From: Synoicihabitans lomoniglobus
GTDB taxonomy: Bacteria > Verrucomicrobiota > Verrucomicrobiia > Opitutales > Opitutaceae
NCBI RefSeq assembly: GCF_029023725.1
Contig: NZ_CP119075.1
Coordinates: 4,025,501 to 4,089,500, forward strand
DNA: 64,000 bases
Reading direction: 5' to 3'
The translations under genes and the position numbers were made by a program. The notes below the pieces were generated by a model. It was not told the DNA's origin and searched no databases. It was given only the letters and a program-made list of their open reading frames with translations. Shown piece by piece: positions 23,788-30,016 of the stretch. The first letter of the stretch is position 1, and each line of letters starts with the position of its first letter.

Positions 23788-25614
23788 TCACCGCGCCGCC
23801 GCCCGCAGAGATCCCGCGCCCACCCCGTTCGCGGCCATCGCCCGGATCAGCGCGCGCCATTCCGGACGCCGCAGCGCGATGCCCAATGCCTCGGCCCCGG
23901 CGGCCCCAAGTTCGTTTTCCAGCCCCTCGTTGGTCGCGACATCCGCCAACTGATCAAGACTTGCTAGTCGCTCCGCCAAGCGTTGCGCCGCCGCGGGACC
24001 GACCCCGGGCAAACCCAGGCCCACCAACACGCGCTCCAGCGGTGCCGCGCGACTGGCTTCGATTGCACGCCAAAGTTTGGCCGCCGTCGCTGCACCAATT
24101 CCCGACACCGATTCAAGCGATTCCACCGTCAGCGCATACAAATCGGCCGGACTCCGCACCAAGCCCGCGTCGACCAGTTTTGCCACCGTCCCGGGACCGA
24201 GTCCGCGAATGTTCAAAGCGTTGCGGGAAGCGAAGTGTTCGATCCGTTGCACGACCTGCGCCTCACAGTCGAAATTCTCGCAGCGCAACTCATCGACACC
24301 CTGCACCGGCTGGTCACAGCTCGGGCAGCGTGATGGCAAACGCAGCGGCCGGGAATCCGGCCCCCGGCGATCACGCTCCACTCCGCCGATCGTGGGAATG
24401 ATTTCACCCGCCTTCTCGACCCAGACCACATCGCCAATCCGCAAATCGCGCCGCCGGACCTCCGCCACGTTATGCAACGACGCTCGCGCGATGACAGTGC
24501 CACTCAACGATACCGGCCGAAACTCGGCCACCGGCGTCAGCGCCCCCGTCCGGCCGACCTGCCAAACCACCGCGGTCAGGGTCGTCTCCGCCCGGGGCGG
24601 CGCAAACTTCCGCGCCAATGCCCACCGGGGCGCGGTCGCCGCCAGACCCAACTTCCGTTGCAATGCCACGTCGTCGACTTTGATCACCACGCCATCCGTC
24701 GGATAACCCTCCGCGAGTGTCCTCACCGCGTGCACCACGCTTTCCATTTCAACCGACGAACGCGTTTCAGCAAAACGAGCGTCACGCACCGACGGCAACC
24801 CACGCGCCTCCAGCCACTGTTGAAACGCCATGACCGATGTCGGCTCGGATTCGGCGGGAGAAACCTCTCCCCAACCGTGAAAAACAATCGAAAGCGTGCG
24901 ACTCGCGACCGCAGCCAGATCCTCCAGTTTGATCGCACCTGCGGCAACGCTCCGCGGATGACGAAACACGGCCTCTCCGTTCGCCACGCGCTCGCGATTC
25001 AACGCGGCGAACGCGGCATCCGTCAGATACACCTCGCCGCGCAGTTCAATGGTCTCGATCGGGACCTCATCGACGTCCCAACCAAACTCGTATCGCAAAC
25101 CGCGTATCGCATTCACCTGCGCGGTCACGTCCTCGCCACTCTCTCCGTCACCCCGCGTGGCTGCGCGCATTAAATTTCCCCGGTGCAAAGTCACACTCAC
25201 GGCGACGCCATCAAACTTGGGCTCGACGGCGAAGCGCACCGATTCGCCGCCCGCAGCCTCTTGGACCCGATCCATGAATTCGCCGACTTCGTCCGCCGAG
25301 TAAGCCTTGTCCAAACTCAGCATCGGGTGCTCATGCATCACCCGGTCAGTCGAGTTCCCACTCGAGTCATCCCCGATTGGGGACTCGTCAACAAGCAGGC
25401 CCGCTGCACGTTCCAAACGACGTAATTCTATCTTCAGCAGATCGTATTCATAATCCGTGATCTCCGGCGCAGCTTGGCGAAAGTAGAGGTCATCATGATG
25501 AGCGATCTCCGCCCGCAATGCATCAATCCGTTCCGAATCATCAACCGCTCCCGCCCCCAAAACCCACCCCAGCATCAAAATCAACCCAAGCCCAGCTCGT
25601 TTCGCGGCATACAT
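23788..25614 (-). CDS. NAD-dependent DNA ligase without BRCT domain, signal-like N-terminus (LigB-like)
   Basis: 608 residues. Residues 1-24 (KRAGLGLILMLGWVLGAGA) look like a signal peptide; the Ia-type helix pair follows (ALRAEIAHHDDLYF, EITDYEYDLL). The adenylation motif is EPKFDG with Lys133; a four-Cys zinc finger (CPSCDQPVQGVDELRCENFDC spans it) and helix-hairpin-helix repeats (GIGAATAAKLW, GLPGVGPAAAQRLAERL) complete the core. The protein stops before any BRCT domain, unlike LigA of about 670 residues. E. coli LigB likewise lacks BRCT and has a signal-like N-terminus. Probably an accessory ligase; its location is open. Confidence 0.87.
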   Translation of the reverse strand: MYAAKRAGLGLILMLGWVLGAGAVDDSERIDALRAEIAHHDDLYFRQAAPEITDYEYDLLKIELRRLERAAGLLVDESPIGDDSSGNSTDRVMHEHPMLSLDKAYSADEVGEFMDRVQEAAGGESVRFAVEPKFDGVAVSVTLHRGNLMRAATRGDGESGEDVTAQVNAIRGLRYEFGWDVDEVPIETIELRGEVYLTDAAFAALNRERVANGEAVFRHPRSVAAGAIKLEDLAAVASRTLSIVFHGWGEVSPAESEPTSVMAFQQWLEARGLPSVRDARFAETRSSVEMESVVHAVRTLAEGYPTDGVVIKVDDVALQRKLGLAATAPRWALARKFAPPRAETTLTAVVWQVGRTGALTPVAEFRPVSLSGTVIARASLHNVAEVRRRDLRIGDVVWVEKAGEIIPTIGGVERDRRGPDSRPLRLPSRCPSCDQPVQGVDELRCENFDCEAQVVQRIEHFASRNALNIRGLGPGTVAKLVDAGLVRSPADLYALTVESLESVSGIGAATAAKLWRAIEASRAAPLERVLVGLGLPGVGPAAAQRLAERLASLDQLADVATNEGLENELGAAGAEALGIALRRPEWRALIRAMAANGVGAGSLRAAAR

Positions 25615-25666: not shown

Positions 25667-25694
25667 GGGGTCATGTCGTTACTTGTTAACACTT
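25667..25694 (+). repeat. Left 28-base inverted repeat of the RAYT unit
   Basis: Begins GGGGTCATGTCGTTACTTG and ends TTAACACTT. Its exact reverse complement is at 26645-26672. The stop codon and last two codons of the transposase gene lie within it. Confidence 0.92.
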
Positions 25695-26611
25695 CGCCCT
25701 CTGCGATGCAGATACACGCGCAACGACCCCGCACTCCCGACACGCAGCCGCTTCGCCAGCCATACAACTGGCGTCCCCAGTTCTCGACGCATTTTAAGCG
25801 CTGCATCGATTTTCCAACGCTCGTAGCCGGCGGTGAGATCCCTCGTCTCCCCATTCTCCCGACACAATTCCCGCAAGCGCCGATCCCAGCGAATCTCTTC
25901 CGCCTTTCGGCCCATAGTGTATTCCGAATTCGCCGAATCTTTGAGATTTGAAACCTGGAGCTGCGCCATCTCCGCTAGCCACGCATCATCTCCGATCGCC
26001 CAACCCTTTGACCAACTCGCGTCGACTTCAGCATCGTGATTCTCGCCTCCCGCCTCGCCCGCACGCGCTCGCAACGCGCTGATCAAGGCAGCCCAACCCT
26101 CCGGCGTATCCTCCAACCCCTTGCTTTGTAGCCAGGGTAGCGGATTTAGCCCTTTGAACCGCGGTCCTTTCCGCAACCGATTGAGGCTGCTCCAGCGAAA
26201 GGAGTGCATTTGGTCTGGATCAACGATTCGGGCGCGAACCGGATTGAGATGAATGTAGTCGCTCAACTCTCCCCACACCCATTCGTTTTGTAGCAAAATC
26301 GCCTTATAGCGGCCCTGGAACAGGTGCCCCGTCTCGTGGCGAAAGCGATTAAATCGACTCGCAAAGGTCACTTGGAGCCACTGCATCCCTCGAGACAAGT
26401 TGGGGTCGGGCGTGCGCAAAGCCAAATGAAAGTGGTTTCGCATCAACACGTAAGAACCCAACTCCCAACCAAAGCGGGTGGTGGCTTCCTCCAGCACCTG
26501 GATGAACGACTCCGCCGCCCCCGCCGAGTCGAACAGATCTCGCCGGTAGTTTCCCCGATTGATCACATGGTAGATCGCTCCCGGGTATTCAATGCGTGGC
26601 ATTCGCGCCAT
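25679..26611 (-). CDS. REP-associated tyrosine transposase (RAYT, Y1/HUH family)
   Basis: 310 residues. N-terminal RIEYPGAIYHVINRGNYRRDLF is the usual RAYT start; the HUH metal motif is RNHFHLAL (His60, His62), and GHLFQGRYKAILLQ holds the expected catalytic Tyr region, with WGELSDYIHLNPVRA after it. The C-terminal third (about 230-310) is a basic helix-rich extension. RAYTs are thought to move or maintain REP palindromes using single-strand DNA chemistry. The gene is intact and framed by perfect 28-base inverted repeats, with more partial copies on the right side. Confidence 0.93.
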   Translation of the reverse strand: MARMPRIEYPGAIYHVINRGNYRRDLFDSAGAAESFIQVLEEATTRFGWELGSYVLMRNHFHLALRTPDPNLSRGMQWLQVTFASRFNRFRHETGHLFQGRYKAILLQNEWVWGELSDYIHLNPVRARIVDPDQMHSFRWSSLNRLRKGPRFKGLNPLPWLQSKGLEDTPEGWAALISALRARAGEAGGENHDAEVDASWSKGWAIGDDAWLAEMAQLQVSNLKDSANSEYTMGRKAEEIRWDRRLRELCRENGETRDLTAGYERWKIDAALKMRRELGTPVVWLAKRLRVGSAGSLRVYLHRRGRSVNK

Positions 26612-26644: not shown

Positions 26645-26672
26645 AAGTGTTAACAAGTAACGACATGACCCC
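26645..26672 (-). repeat. Right 28-base inverted repeat of the RAYT unit
   Basis: Exact reverse complement of 25667-25694, 33 bases upstream of the transposase start. Immediately to the right, CCCGTCGGATTGCC occurs twice in tandem (26670-26683 and 26686-26699). Confidence 0.92.
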
Positions 26673-26744
26673 GTCGGATTGCCTCCCGTCGGATTGCCGT
26701 TCGCCTGGTGGGCAAAGCGGGATGATCCATCCGGGGCGGCTAAA

Positions 26745-26785
26745 ACACACAAAACACGACATGACATGACCCCGTCGGATTGGCC
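26745..26785 (-). repeat. REP-like repeat copy (family A)
   Basis: Reads ACACACAAAACACGACATG, then an extra duplicated ATGAC step, then ACCCCGTCGGATTGGCC. It shares CGACATGACCCCGTCGGATT with the right end of the RAYT unit. It lies in the 269-base gap between the RAYT and the OLD nuclease gene, which holds no gene. Confidence 0.85.
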
Positions 26786-26828
26786 TCGCCATAGCTGATT
26801 ATTCAGACTGATCTCTCATTCGTGTTCA

Positions 26829-26864
26829 ACACACAAAACACGACATGACCCCGTCGTATTGGCC
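26829..26864 (-). repeat. REP-like repeat copy (family A)
   Basis: Direct repeat of the 26745-26785 copy, without the ATGAC duplication and with one base change (GTCGTATT for GTCGGATT). It ends 17 bases from the stop codon of the OLD-family gene. Confidence 0.85.
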
Positions 26865-26880: not shown

Positions 26881-28659
26881 TTAATCTAACAACTGCACTT
26901 CGCTACCCTTTTGCCTGAAGTCGTTAAGTTCCCTAATAAATTGAATCATATCATCGGGAATCATATTCCGCTTCAAACCGGCCAAAAGACTAGCGACGCT
27001 TATATGGACAGAATAATTTTCCTGAAGCCTCCCATTGATTCGGGAGATTGCTTCTTTTCCTGAAACTACTTTCACTCTGCCATCAAACTCCTTCCAATTC
27101 TGCTCGAACTCTCTGGTCGATTCGAGATCACAGGTAGAAGAGTCCTTCCCCGGACATTCCGCACGGCAGTAGTCACGATAAGATTTTTGATACTGGACTT
27201 GGGTCTCAATACGAATCTCCTCAAGCGAGTCGCCAACAACCTCCAAAACTTGATACTCAACGAGAGGACTTAAGTTATATCGCCTTCTCTCTGCATTCAC
27301 AACCAGCAAGAGTAATTCAGGAATTAACAAATAGTTCTCAATCTCCTTCCTCTGTAATATGGAAACCAACGAAGCTACCTTCTTAAGCGCATTCTCAATC
27401 TTTCGAACTTCAGCGGAACATCGATAATCTCGATCAAAGAGAACCGCCTTTTCTAGTCGCATCCCAAGCGTGGCCTCTACCCCTTCGGAAAAATCCCTGA
27501 CTTTGGGGGGATTGAAGCCATGAACTGGAACTACAGCGAAATCTGACCTGTTCGCGATTTTTGCGAAGCGAAGCACACGAGCAATCCCTGCGATAATTGT
27601 AAAATCTTTTCCTTCTACATATAGAACCCTTCTGCATTTTGCGATTTGTGTAAGCGTCGGATTGGCGTTTGACCCAAGAACACTAAATATTTCTTGGATC
27701 TCCTTTACATTTCTCACCGCACGCGCCGCTTTCCTATATTTATTGATATTTAAAATATTTCTCGGATCCACTTCTGAAATGATTTCAGTGGAATGAGTCG
27801 CCAAGATCACACGGCAGTTTCGATCTCGGAGAATATTCACCAGTTGCCGCTGAAGGTCAGAATGTAGATAAATATCCGGCTCATCGATAATAAGATGAGC
27901 TCCTTCCTGCGCTTGAACTAAATGTGTGAGCATCTGACACCACACTTGAAATCCAAAACCTGCCCAAAATATTTCTCGAGGATACCGATCCTCGGGGCAA
28001 AACATGTGAAGCATCGGCTTTTGCCCTGAATCGTTCCGCTCCGGCCTTTGAATATCCATGCCTGGCCAGGTCGTAACCAAAAGACTTCGAAACTCCTCAA
28101 AATTTTCGGGATAGTGATACCAAATGTTTCTGAAGTTTCTCGATCCAAAAGGAGAGCGAAGCGCCAATCGAGCGGCTTCTTTCTGATAAAGCAACTCATT
28201 ATGTTCGACCGGACCCAATATTGGAACAATGACAATCGAGAGATCAAATTCCCGCTTAAAATTCGCTACGGATCTTATTGCTCGTTTCGCCTCTGGAATT
28301 AATGAACAAATTCCCCGCTCTGGGAACACCAGTCGGAGGCTATTTCCATTATCTATTTTGAAGATGATGCTAGCAGGTTCTGAGTCATCATAGTTGTAGA
28401 ATACATTTTCTGTTGAAACTGGCATTCCCTCTAAATCAATCCGGTAACCAAATTCACCACTATCTCCATTGGGAACCCATTCTGGTTTTCTGGAGTAAGC
28501 CTTCTTCAGCGCCTCGCTTAAGAGTCGAAACGCACCAAGAACCGTAGATTTTCCGGCATTATTCGGTCCCACCAAAACACTAAAATCGGCGATTCGCACA
28601 CTATAATGGCGAAACGCTTTGTATCTTCTAAACTCAATTAGCGTAATGTGATTTGCCAT
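26881..28659 (-). CDS. OLD-family AAA ATPase with TOPRIM nuclease domain, probable horizontal acquisition
   Basis: 592 residues. ABC-type ATPase half: Walker A GPNNAGKST (31-39), Walker B HLIIDEPDIYLH (255-266), H-loop ATHS (287-290). The TOPRIM half has LYVEGKDF (346-353, Glu349), FDRDYR (408-413) and RKEIENYLL (437-445), as in OLD nucleases. Three Cys lie at 498-510 (YCRAEC..., STC). The gene is visibly AT-rich against GC-rich neighbours, indicating transfer. No GajB-like helicase or other partner is adjacent, so it fits a stand-alone class 1 OLD-type protein; phage P2 Old and Gabija GajA are relatives, and a defence role is inferred. Confidence 0.88.
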   Translation of the reverse strand: MANHITLIEFRRYKAFRHYSVRIADFSVLVGPNNAGKSTVLGAFRLLSEALKKAYSRKPEWVPNGDSGEFGYRIDLEGMPVSTENVFYNYDDSEPASIIFKIDNGNSLRLVFPERGICSLIPEAKRAIRSVANFKREFDLSIVIVPILGPVEHNELLYQKEAARLALRSPFGSRNFRNIWYHYPENFEEFRSLLVTTWPGMDIQRPERNDSGQKPMLHMFCPEDRYPREIFWAGFGFQVWCQMLTHLVQAQEGAHLIIDEPDIYLHSDLQRQLVNILRDRNCRVILATHSTEIISEVDPRNILNINKYRKAARAVRNVKEIQEIFSVLGSNANPTLTQIAKCRRVLYVEGKDFTIIAGIARVLRFAKIANRSDFAVVPVHGFNPPKVRDFSEGVEATLGMRLEKAVLFDRDYRCSAEVRKIENALKKVASLVSILQRKEIENYLLIPELLLLVVNAERRRYNLSPLVEYQVLEVVGDSLEEIRIETQVQYQKSYRDYCRAECPGKDSSTCDLESTREFEQNWKEFDGRVKVVSGKEAISRINGRLQENYSVHISVASLLAGLKRNMIPDDMIQFIRELNDFRQKGSEVQLLD

Positions 28660-28798: not shown

Positions 28799-28830
28799 AA
28801 AAAAAGGCCCGGCTTTTTGCCGGGCCTTTT
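28799..28830 (-). terminator. Intrinsic terminator of the ParE toxin-antitoxin operon
   Basis: Arms GGCCCGGC (28806-28813) and GCCGGGCC (28819-28826) with a TTTTT loop, flanked by an A run on the left (28799-28805) and TTTT on the right, so it can work in both directions. It is downstream of the toxin stop (28944) and upstream of the OLD gene. The rest of the 284-base gap 28660-28943 holds AT-rich sequence likely to contain the OLD promoter and a REP-like copy; no gene. Confidence 0.85.
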
Positions 28831-28838
28831 AGGTGTCC

Positions 28839-28862
28839 GGACGGGGTCATGTCGTGTTTTGT
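28839..28862 (+). repeat. REP-like repeat copy (family A) beside a terminator
   Basis: GGACGGGGTCATGTCGTGTT continuing to 28862 has the same core as the RAYT ends, in the orientation of the left end. The octamer CCGGACGG occurs on both sides (28837-28844 and 28870-28877), which could be a target duplication or part of the repeat. Confidence 0.8.
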
Positions 28863-28943
28863 TTGTTTTCCGGACGGAACGCGGGGACTTTCTCGTAGAG
28901 GAAAAGTAGGACGGGGCAGTCACCGGAGAAGACTGTCATGAGA

Positions 28944-29237
28944 TTATTGCCGCGTGGCGAGACTGCTTTGATTCCGGGCGGTATGAAAGACCGCGACGAT
29001 TCGAACGGTGTCATGGTCGCGGAGTTCGTAGTAAATGGCGTAAGGGAAGCGCTTGGTATGAACGCGACGCAGATCTCGTAGCACAGCGCGAGGTAGCGTT
29101 GGGTGCTCTAAAATGAAATGAAATACCGTGTCGACGGCGGTGACCAACGCTCTGCCCAGGCCTGGTGACTCGGCTTCATACCAATCATGGGCTTCAATCA
29201 AGTCACGGTGCGCTGCTGACGTGACCCGAATTCTCAT
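28944..29237 (-). CDS. ParE/RelE-family toxin
   Basis: 97 residues. VTSAAHRDLIEAHDWYEAESPGLG at the N-terminus and HTKRFPYAIYYELRDHDTVRIVAVFHTARNQ at the C-terminus follow the ParE-type toxin pattern (the RFPYAIYY and VFHTAR segments). ParE toxins poison gyrase, while RelE relatives cleave mRNA; the presence of YYE-type residues does not settle which. It starts 18 bases after the antitoxin stop, giving an antitoxin-first operon. Confidence 0.88.
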   Translation of the reverse strand: MRIRVTSAAHRDLIEAHDWYEAESPGLGRALVTAVDTVFHFILEHPTLPRAVLRDLRRVHTKRFPYAIYYELRDHDTVRIVAVFHTARNQSSLATRQ

Positions 29238-29255
29238 CGTATTCCAGTCGAGTCC

Positions 29256-29468
29256 CTATCGACCCAGAATGTCGTCACGGACCTCTTCCCAAGAACGTCC
29301 TTGGTCGCTGGACTGCGTTTCTGAGCGTTTATTCAACTCGTCGATGTGCCATTGCGGAATTGGCAGCGTGTCCGGATTTGCCGCTATCTCGTCCCAGATC
29401 TCCTGAACCAATTCGATTTTCTCCGCAGGAGTCAGTCGGCTTAGTTCGGCGGCGATGGTCGCATTCAT
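29256..29468 (-). CDS. Addiction-module antitoxin, CHP02574-type
   Basis: 70 residues from ATG 29468. AAELSRLTPAEKIELVQEIWDEIA followed by PIPQWHIDELNKR is the typical addiction-module component family, and WEEVRDDIL at the C-terminus is the toxin-binding tail. It precedes the ParE-type gene, as expected for a type II system, and should neutralise it and autoregulate the operon. Confidence 0.87.
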   Translation of the reverse strand: MNATIAAELSRLTPAEKIELVQEIWDEIAANPDTLPIPQWHIDELNKRSETQSSDQGRSWEEVRDDILGR

Positions 29469-29563
29469 GGGGTGAACAGTGAGCGGTTTTTGCGGCGTGG
29501 CAACGATGCGATTGGGGGCGGCAATGGGGCCGATGCGGGAAGGGTAGGATCTGGTGGATGGAG

Positions 29564-29590
29564 CGGCGCGCTCGGCGAGCACGCCCTACC
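29564..29590 (-). repeat. 27-base intergenic repeat, family B, copy 3
   Basis: On the minus strand it reads GGTAGGGC, variable GTG, then CTCGCCGAGCGCGCCG. Unlike copies 1 and 2 it is not between convergent genes; it lies upstream of the antitoxin start, next to a family A repeat. Confidence 0.8.
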
Positions 29591-29683: not shown

Positions 29684-30016
29684 CTAGTTCACTTTTCCCG
29701 CTTTAGGGCGGGAACTTAGCCAATTTTCGAATGATGATGTGCTTTCGCCGGACGGGGCTCCGGCAAGCAGGCCTTCCGCACTAAGATCTTCATCCAAGAG
29801 GGGCCAATGCACGCCATAACCCTTCGCGATGAGTTGCCACGTATTGCGCTCTTTAACGGTGCCGTGGGCGAGTCGGGGATACCAACTTAGCGGTAGGAGA
29901 TGGCGGCGACCATCATCAAAGTCCACCTTGAGGCGGGAGGCCGTCACCGCAACTGCCTTGACGCGAATCACTTTAGTGTCCGTCGAAGTAGGCGTGCCAT
30001 TTTTGGATGAACTCAT
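29684..30016 (-). CDS. DUF2442 protein
   Basis: 110 residues. KVIRVKAVAVTASRLKVDFDDGRRHLLPLSWYPRLA matches DUF2442 (the DGR...PL.WYPRL pattern), and YGVHWPLLDEDLSAEGLL is its usual second half. The family often follows DUF4160 genes, and such pairs have been proposed to be toxin-antitoxin-like; that role is unproved. The start overlaps the DUF4160 gene by 44 bases. Confidence 0.8.
   Translation of the reverse strand: MSSSKNGTPTSTDTKVIRVKAVAVTASRLKVDFDDGRRHLLPLSWYPRLAHGTVKERNTWQLIAKGYGVHWPLLDEDLSAEGLLAGAPSGESTSSFENWLSSRPKAGKVN

Follow-up and report, generated by a model that had tools for sequence, protein, structure and literature searches.

We identified a gene for a single-chain ATPase-TOPRIM protein in a 64,000-nucleotide stretch of the Synoicihabitans lomoniglobus genome (Verrucomicrobiota; contig NZ_CP119075.1, positions 4,025,501 to 4,089,500 of the forward strand), referred to here as the window; coordinates are those of the window unless another genome is named. 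The gene is an intact open reading frame (ORF) of 592 codons on the minus strand, with its ATG at 28659 and its stop at 26881. It had been singled out from the letters alone, in what we call the original prediction, as an AT-rich, stand-alone OLD-type ATPase/TOPRIM nuclease gene lying between repeats and a candidate for a defence role. The encoded protein joins a compact ABC-type ATPase to a nuclease domain that, by profiles and predicted structure, resembles AriB of the PARIS system, and we regard it as a candidate one-gene defence protein. The gene, the domains and the conserved motifs are located as follows.

26881..28659, minus strand: gene for the single-chain ATPase-TOPRIM protein, 592 residues; intact ORF, included in the 56-member full-length alignment
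27664..28659, minus strand: compact ABC-type ATPase domain, N-terminal, residues ~1-332 (Pfam AAA_21 at 2.6e-23, AAA_15; fold matches to PtuA, SMC/Rad50 and AriA)
28543..28569, minus strand: Walker A GPNNAGKST (31-39); G31, N33, N34 and G36-T39 invariant
27925..27960, minus strand: signature-like motif GFGFQVWCQMLT (234-245), a family hallmark
27874..27894, minus strand: Walker B LIIDEPD (256-262); D259, E260 and P261 invariant
27790..27801, minus strand: H-loop ATHS (287-290, H-loop histidine H289); A287, T288, H289 and S290 invariant
26884..27663, minus strand: TOPRIM domain and helical tail, C-terminal, residues ~333-592 (AlphaFold2 model, AriB and OLD TOPRIM folds, AriAB and AriB profiles of relatives)
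27613..27615, minus strand: TOPRIM glutamate E349, within YVEG; invariant
27427..27435, minus strand: TOPRIM DRD (D409-D411); D409 invariant, D411 kept in 90% or more
27328..27348, minus strand: KEIENYL motif (438-444), possibly AriB-like; E439 and E441 invariant, N442 and L444 kept in 90% or more

Conservation is given for an alignment of 56 full-length proteins that includes the window protein and leaves out loci L004 and L015. With an ABC-type ATPase and a C-terminal TOPRIM carrying its glutamate and DxD in the same chain, the protein belongs to the OLD superfamily. Walker A, Walker B, the H-loop and the TOPRIM residues, which the original prediction had called complete, are all intact and are invariant or nearly so across the family. 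In the motif that we read as signature-like, nine residues are invariant (G234, G236, F237, Q238, W240, C241, Q242, L244 and T245). The KEIENYL motif was absent from the motif list of the original prediction; its Y443 is not conserved among the aligned members. AAA_21/AAA_15 is found in 56/56 members, and the AlphaFold2 models are confident (pLDDT, the predicted local distance difference test, 91.8 for the full length and 95.6 for residues 329-592). Invariant positions are found in Walker A, in the signature-like motif, in Walker B and in the H-loop, and E349, D409, E439 and E441 are invariant too. The acidic residues that metal-dependent cleavage calls for are present in the family, and its ATPase is likely able to bind ATP.

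Relatives 48% identical by tblastn lie on two Cupriavidus megaplasmids, one of them equal in length and the other frameshifted. A scan of GTDB genomes with a two-row alignment, through two seven-residue patterns, gave at least 79 family loci; as the scan sees only loci that carry one of the two patterns, this number is a lower bound. A full-length protein was obtained from 57 loci: 56 are 585-607 residues long, and a distant Nostoc relative has 625. The 55 other aligned members are 36-50% identical to the window protein. The closest partial relative among the loci listed (L030) lies in a Verrucomicrobiota metagenome-assembled genome (MAG) and is 61% identical over residues 5-421, at a contig end. 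A limited search of the open-access literature gave no name for this family of about 590 residues.

The base composition of the gene differs from that of its surroundings. Its GC content is 0.437 against 0.620 in the remainder of the window, and its GC at third codon positions (GC3) is 0.42 against 0.57-0.88 in ten neighbouring genes, which bears out the earlier description of a 592-residue AT-rich gene unlike its neighbours. The gene was probably acquired by gene transfer and would be a recent arrival in its host genome. The same property is seen in relatives. In the 54 of 57 full-length loci with at least 5 kb of flank, the family gene is lower in GC than its flank in every case (median -12 points), although these loci are partly dependent, as they include the Nostoc relative and close pairs (two Polaromonas, Rhizobium/Agrobacterium and two Legionella). 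Its GC3 lies below the median of the neighbouring long ORFs in 50/50 loci, and it has the lowest GC of all long ORFs in 38/50, compared with about 5.6 expected if each had eight such neighbours. At loci whose flanks do not exceed 50% GC, the family gene is lower too (8/8), which suggests that low GC is a property of the family and not only of the last donor.

Which known proteins the two halves most resemble depends on the part compared. At full length, AriAB gives the best E-value among the best 25 of 133 PADLOC models (1e-27), followed by Old (2e-25) and GajA (2.2e-25); since these two are close behind, the full-length comparison does not decide. The AriAB model PDLC02981 matches 56/56 members at 1e-5 or better and gives the window protein 53.7 bits, its best stretch being residues 250-482 on positions 328-562 of 694. 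With the nuclease half alone (53 members, threshold 0.01), ten PADLOC models match overall: AriAB in 27 members (best 1.6e-9), AriB in 19, a second AriAB model in 6, mad4 in 4, GajA models in 4, 1 and 1, and three further models in 1-2. No Old model is among them. VIA-align places AriB highest for the nuclease half (8ux9_A, Z 11.6 with 212 residues aligned; 8v46_D, Z 10.6 with 208), compared with Z 8.7 at best for an OLD TOPRIM (173 residues, root-mean-square deviation, rmsd, 4.7 A). AriB is not listed when the whole model is compared because the ATPase fills the list.

Short motifs lean towards AriA and AriB. Walker B reads DEP in the window protein, in two AriA-like proteins and in the Nostoc protein, and EEP in the eight canonical OLD proteins for which the motif could be located. 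After the DxD, the window protein has E-N-Y-L, the Nostoc relative EIENYL and the DUF4435 protein of L127 AVENYL, and none of ten canonical OLD proteins read has ENYL there, one having VENLV near its end. By sequence profiles and by VIA-align of the predicted model, the nuclease domain is more like AriB of PARIS than like Old or GajA. The OLD-type label of the original prediction is thus only partly right: the ATPase-TOPRIM build is confirmed, while the nuclease-half profiles, VIA-align and the DEP Walker B favour AriB and PARIS, against the Foldseek ranking and the weak Pfam OLD-like_TOPRIM matches given below.

The Pfam family DUF4435 (PF14491) matches 4/56 members at E<=1, the best at 5.1e-5. 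In the 30 carrier genomes or records (E 0.001), the sole member found, that of L009, falls short of the curated cut-off (25.7 against 27 bits), and we therefore call the family PARIS-like single-chain rather than PARIS. The window protein has no listed match to OLD-like_TOPRIM or DUF4435 at E<=10, a range in which the HMMER filters drop most matches above about 0.1, and hmmsearch of PDB sequences with a profile of the nuclease domain gave two chance-level matches only. As DUF4435 occurs in 0/240 phylum-sample genomes at 1e-8, there are no local PARIS references.

The gene is sparsely distributed. It occurs in 1/8 genomes of its genus and in 1/387 and 1/288 sampled genomes of the phylum (overlapping samples), its own genome being counted each time, and the family gene occurs in 3/369 genomes of a Gammaproteobacteria class sample around the Marinobacter carrier, seed included. 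Record titles place the rows of the family tree in ten phyla (Pseudomonadota, Bacteroidota, Acidobacteriota, Verrucomicrobiota, Planctomycetota, Thermodesulfobacteriota, Gemmatimonadota, Nitrospirota, Vulcanimicrobiota and Bipolaricaulota), with many MAGs; an additional 3 kb contig (L063) has a methanogen as its assigned source, which may reflect a binning error. Two Verrucomicrobiota members form a weakly supported group (91/54) with the window protein, and the Bacteroidota members form one group. The Pseudomonadota label requires at least nine changes by the starred branches alone, and its clustering is at chance level (13 changes; 109/500 shuffles as low), while all phylum labels taken jointly are somewhat clustered (14 changes, where the shuffled mean is 17.8; 0/200 as low). 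The bootstrap values are not fully settled and mixed phylum labels are no proof of transfer; the family has nonetheless probably spread across phyla by gene transfer. No relative was found among 50,697 phage records (tblastn, 1e-5), and a scan of viral contigs gave five pattern matches and no relatives, thus no phage-borne member at that sensitivity. The coding sequence is split over at least two ORFs in 9/82 loci (L002-L083), isolates included, although errors in MAGs can also cause splits. The split copies (L003, L006, L054, L067, L074, L079, L081, L082 and L083) suggest decay or, in MAGs, assembly errors.

Around the gene, repeats and a hairpin are found on the following positions.

26828..26855, plus strand: repeat resembling repetitive extragenic palindromic (REP) elements, left arm of an inverted pair around the gene; 28 nt, 96% complementary to 28840-28867
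28800..28830, no strand assigned: terminator-like hairpin (at about 28806-28830) between the ATPase-TOPRIM gene and the ParE/antitoxin genes, read from the sequence and listed on the plus strand at 28811-28826
28840..28867, minus strand: REP-like repeat, right arm of the inverted pair, beside the hairpin; pairs with 26828-26855

To the left of the gene, repeat copies lie at 26653-26684, 26754-26785 and 26833-26864. The repeat core, with at most one mismatch, has six copies genome-wide, four of them here or just left of the gene, and the reversed control has none. With copies on both sides and the hairpin beside the right-hand one, the flanks are as the original prediction had them. The same-strand neighbours are a REP-associated tyrosine transposase (RAYT, IS200-like; 25679-26611), a ParE toxin with its antitoxin (28944-29582) and DUF2442 (29684-30016); a ribonucleotide reductase gene lies past DUF2442 and a DNA ligase gene past the transposase, both named from their translations. 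The ParE-type toxin and its Unstab_antitox (PF09720) partner lie just upstream of the ATPase-TOPRIM gene, followed by DUF2442, and these genes too are below the window mean in GC (0.55-0.58). Because the hairpin separates it from the toxin pair, the ATPase-TOPRIM gene would be transcribed alone. No sigma-70-like promoter was called upstream of it (three promoter-like sites in the stretch scanned against a chance expectation of 3.4). Among the window ORFs and the Pfam matches of the scanned neighbours, we found no helicase, reverse transcriptase or other partner adjoining the gene; RAYT, ParE/antitoxin and DUF2442 are the only neighbours among those scanned, in agreement with the earlier statement that no partner lies next door.

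The RAYT gene (minus strand) is itself enclosed by perfect 28-nt inverted repeats (25667-25694 and 26645-26672) related to those of the ATPase-TOPRIM gene. In this genome the latter gene may have arrived as cargo, flanked by the inverted REP repeats and next to the REP-associated transposase. Such carriage is possible at this locus, and we do not extend it to the family: a RAYT homologue (E<=1e-5) is near just one other locus, L060, in the ORF set of L001-L083, and a RAYT-borne cassette was rejected as a general rule. In three relatives from the genus, RAYT homologues follow nrdA in genomes that lack the ATPase-TOPRIM gene, so the transposase is not necessarily its carrier.

The region after nrdA varies within the genus, and none of the seven relatives holds the ATPase-TOPRIM gene. 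In G388 the space from nrdA to the ligase gene is occupied by genes for a RAYT-like protein and a DEAD-box helicase, and G390 has a ParA-like ORF, read from its translation, and RAYT copies after nrdA. The stretches read in G387, G391 and G389 showed no match to the accessory genes of the window. In G091 (L108, 12507-14721) the interval between nrdA and ligase is about 15 kb long, with a RAYT and an ORF of 397 residues. The interval looks like an insertion-prone spot. A second DNA-ligase-like gene in the window (23788-25614, read from its translation) has copies 53-58% identical in three other genomes of the genus, making 4/8, and a paralogue of it, 44-46% identical, is present in all eight. 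A gene conserved in place with normal composition, which would have spoken against the original prediction, is contradicted by its presence in a single genome of the genus and by the GC deficit at every family locus compared.

The family also has no conserved partner elsewhere. We clustered 1097 neighbour ORFs from 80/82 loci of L002-L083 (L073 and L080 were dropped, having no core ORF in the simple gene caller); the top shared cluster is an ABC-type ATPase at nine loci in scattered positions, and a conserved partner gene is ruled out at these loci. Near ORFs match PADLOC defence models more often than far ones (32 models at 1e-15 among 130 near ORFs against nine among 130 far ORFs; the sets were drawn from 196 and 134 candidates and exclude ORFs over 900 residues). 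We give no significance for this difference as the models overlap, and the excess is suggestive only. The near set includes matches to a type II restriction enzyme and methyltransferase, as well as two phage integrases, none of which is among the far-set Pfam families listed (25 of 152). A single GajB-model match occurs among the 130 near ORFs. A separate two-gene AriA-AriB-like pair (L127, L128) is present in 2/30 carrier genomes or records, those of L011 and L040; in these pairs a DUF4435 protein above the cut-off adjoins what we read as an ATPase. The distant Nostoc relative (GJB62_RS33680 of plasmid pNsp_c; 22% identical, with E 2e-20 when the two sequences are compared and 7e-9 in the plasmid search) belongs to a BREX-1 operon, in which pglX and pglZ flank it. 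This setting is in line with a 2026 survey in which OLD ATPases linked to TOPRIM are reported to serve BREX loci as backup effectors (PMC12839542).

Taking these observations together, it is moderately probable that the window gene is a one-gene defence whose product, a member of the OLD/PARIS superfamily, has an ATPase that restrains a toxic, AriB-like TOPRIM nuclease until a trigger is met. A defence role for the family as a whole is likely, and the defence role proposed in the original prediction is upheld, as an inference only. In the mechanism that we propose, the compact ATPase would keep the nuclease of the same chain inactive, probably as an oligomer. On sensing a sign that a phage or plasmid is invading, the ATPase half would release the nuclease, which would act through metal ions held by E349, D409 and D411, with E439 and E441 as further acidic residues. 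Growth would then stop or the invader be killed, most likely by abortive infection as in PARIS. The oligomer, the trigger, the nuclease action and the abortive outcome are all inferred. AriA has been reported to sense phage proteins and to release AriB, a tRNase for which a two-metal-ion mechanism has been proposed (PMC12409363). P2 Old, as cited in PMC13261556, reportedly cleaves a host tRNA after activation, and GajA nicks DNA (PMC10568477). Any substrate would be a guess, whether tRNA by analogy with AriB or DNA by analogy with GajA and TsOLD; because the nuclease half is nearest AriB by profile, we give tRNA the edge, at a little under an even chance.

Several observations weigh against this reading. 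We know of no activity recorded for any member of the family. The loci are not clearly defence islands, as most of the PADLOC models match one protein and several can match the same one. Among solved structures the ATPase half is nearer to PtuA of retron and Septu systems (Z 20-22), and AriA (Z 17.9) is no nearer than the heads of SMC and Rad50 (Z 17-19.5). The window protein's own nuclease domain matches no PADLOC model at 0.01, so its link to AriB rests on relatives, fold and motif. The rmsd of the AriB superpositions is high, at 7.7 and 7.0 A, where the best OLD TOPRIM has 4.7 A, and Foldseek lists OLD TOPRIM domains first for the nuclease half (4.8e-4) and AriB sixth (9.2e-3). The two programs rank the models differently, with more of the domain covered by AriB and a tighter superposition with OLD. 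OLD-like_TOPRIM (PF20469) is found weakly in 12/56 members (best 0.0042), compared with 4/56 for DUF4435. When the nuclease-domain family was aligned by hhalign with each of two single DUF4435 proteins, the probability was 1% or less, although single-sequence templates are weak, and the DUF4435 protein of L128 has HDLECLL in place of an AVENYL-type motif. Set among OLD, GajA and PARIS proteins, the family falls on the PARIS side by nuclease profiles and VIA-align, while Foldseek leans to OLD and Pfam is undecided on the nuclease half. An archaeal ATPase of the OLD superfamily, Cran1, has also been reported as not being a defence protein (PMC12796447).

Cran1 is the precedent for a function outside defence, in which the window gene would encode a host-regulatory or DNA-repair ATPase. 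The strong conservation of the ATPase and the lack of a defence partner fit such a role. However, the gene was not found in seven of eight genomes of its genus or in 386/387 of the phylum samples, and its low GC at all loci compared and the split copies also argue against it, so that we consider a non-defence function very improbable. Nor are housekeeping homologues suggested, given the absence of conserved context in 80 loci and the sparse occurrence across phyla, although no function of the family is known to us. It is also unlikely, though less so, that the family belongs to Class 1 OLD in the sense of P2 Old and TsOLD, as a stand-alone DNA nuclease or a suicide protein guarding RecBCD, with the likeness to AriB reflecting shared ancestry only. 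A stand-alone gene is the defining context of Class 1 OLD (PMC10568477), the PADLOC Old model matches all 56 members, with further matches from GajA models, Foldseek lists TsOLD for the whole model (5.9e-13), and the Pfam and Foldseek results for the TOPRIM lean the same way, although the best DUF4435 match is stronger than the best to OLD-like_TOPRIM. However, the strongest part of the window protein's Old match is residues 4-50, in the ATPase, and for the nuclease half alone AriAB and AriB are ahead; the DEP Walker B and the ENYL after the DxD likewise separate the window protein from the canonical OLD proteins read.

A fused PARIS (AriAB), which would sense anti-restriction proteins such as Ocr, cut tRNA and already be counted by permissive fusion models, is somewhat more credible than Class 1 OLD but still rather doubtful. 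Fused AriAB is documented, with a 20-bit cut-off for fusions of AAA_21 and DUF4435 (PMC9122126), and both the AriAB score of the window protein and the DUF4435 matches in four members accord with it. On the other side stand the curated DUF4435 cut-off, which is not reached, the shorter ATPase (225 residues between Walker A and Walker B in the window protein against 344 and 361 in two AriA-like proteins), the separate AriA-AriB-like pair held by two of the carriers, and the surroundings of the window gene, where we recognised no restriction or BREX gene. The reading of a PARIS-like single-chain defence protein leads to a further, tentative suggestion, which we hold to be possible rather than probable: that the family is a separate unnamed OLD class, pairing a minimal sensor ATPase with an RNase-like TOPRIM of AriB type in about 590 residues, defending without AriA, restriction or helicase partners and transferred across at least ten phyla. 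A 2023 review asks whether defence by a lone OLD gene is possible, and whether AriAB fusions in a single gene should count as a separate class (PMC10568477). With one gene, a near-uniform length, a fixed active site and no shared partner, the family is a concrete and well-bounded candidate for both. If the nuclease cuts tRNA, the sensor-effector logic of PARIS would be seen to fit into one compact chain.

The comparison with known systems sets the family among several relatives. PtuA works with the HNH partner PtuB, which is also named in the PDB titles. PtuA of Septu and retrons is the top-scoring solved fold for the ATPase of the window protein, with about 280-300 residues aligned; it differs in this pairing, whereas the window protein has a TOPRIM in the same chain. 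For the OLD effectors of Class 3, which belong to retrons, no reverse transcriptase is seen among the Pfam-identified neighbours of the window gene. GajA of Gabija (Class 2 OLD) gives the best PDB sequence matches, across both ATPase parts and the first TOPRIM strand, but the window gene adjoins no GajB helicase, and the TOPRIM reaches Z 8.7 or less against 11.6 for AriB.

Class 1 OLD proteins (P2 Old, TsOLD and YbjD) share with the window protein a stand-alone gene, the union of ATPase and TOPRIM, a similar length and the head of the Foldseek list; they differ in that the nuclease half of the family has no Old profile match, and in having EEP and no ENYL after the DxD. The BREX-embedded Nostoc protein has the same domain order, EIENYL and the DEP Walker B, but lies inside an operon and on a very long branch of the tree. 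Compared with fused AriAB of PARIS, the window family is below the DUF4435 cut-off, has 119-136 fewer residues between Walker A and Walker B than two AriA-like proteins, and in the window has no recognised restriction gene beside it. It shares with fused AriAB the N-terminal ATPase and C-terminal AriB-like TOPRIM in one chain, the DEP Walker B, the AriAB profile in every aligned member and, for its nuclease half, the top Z score to AriB.

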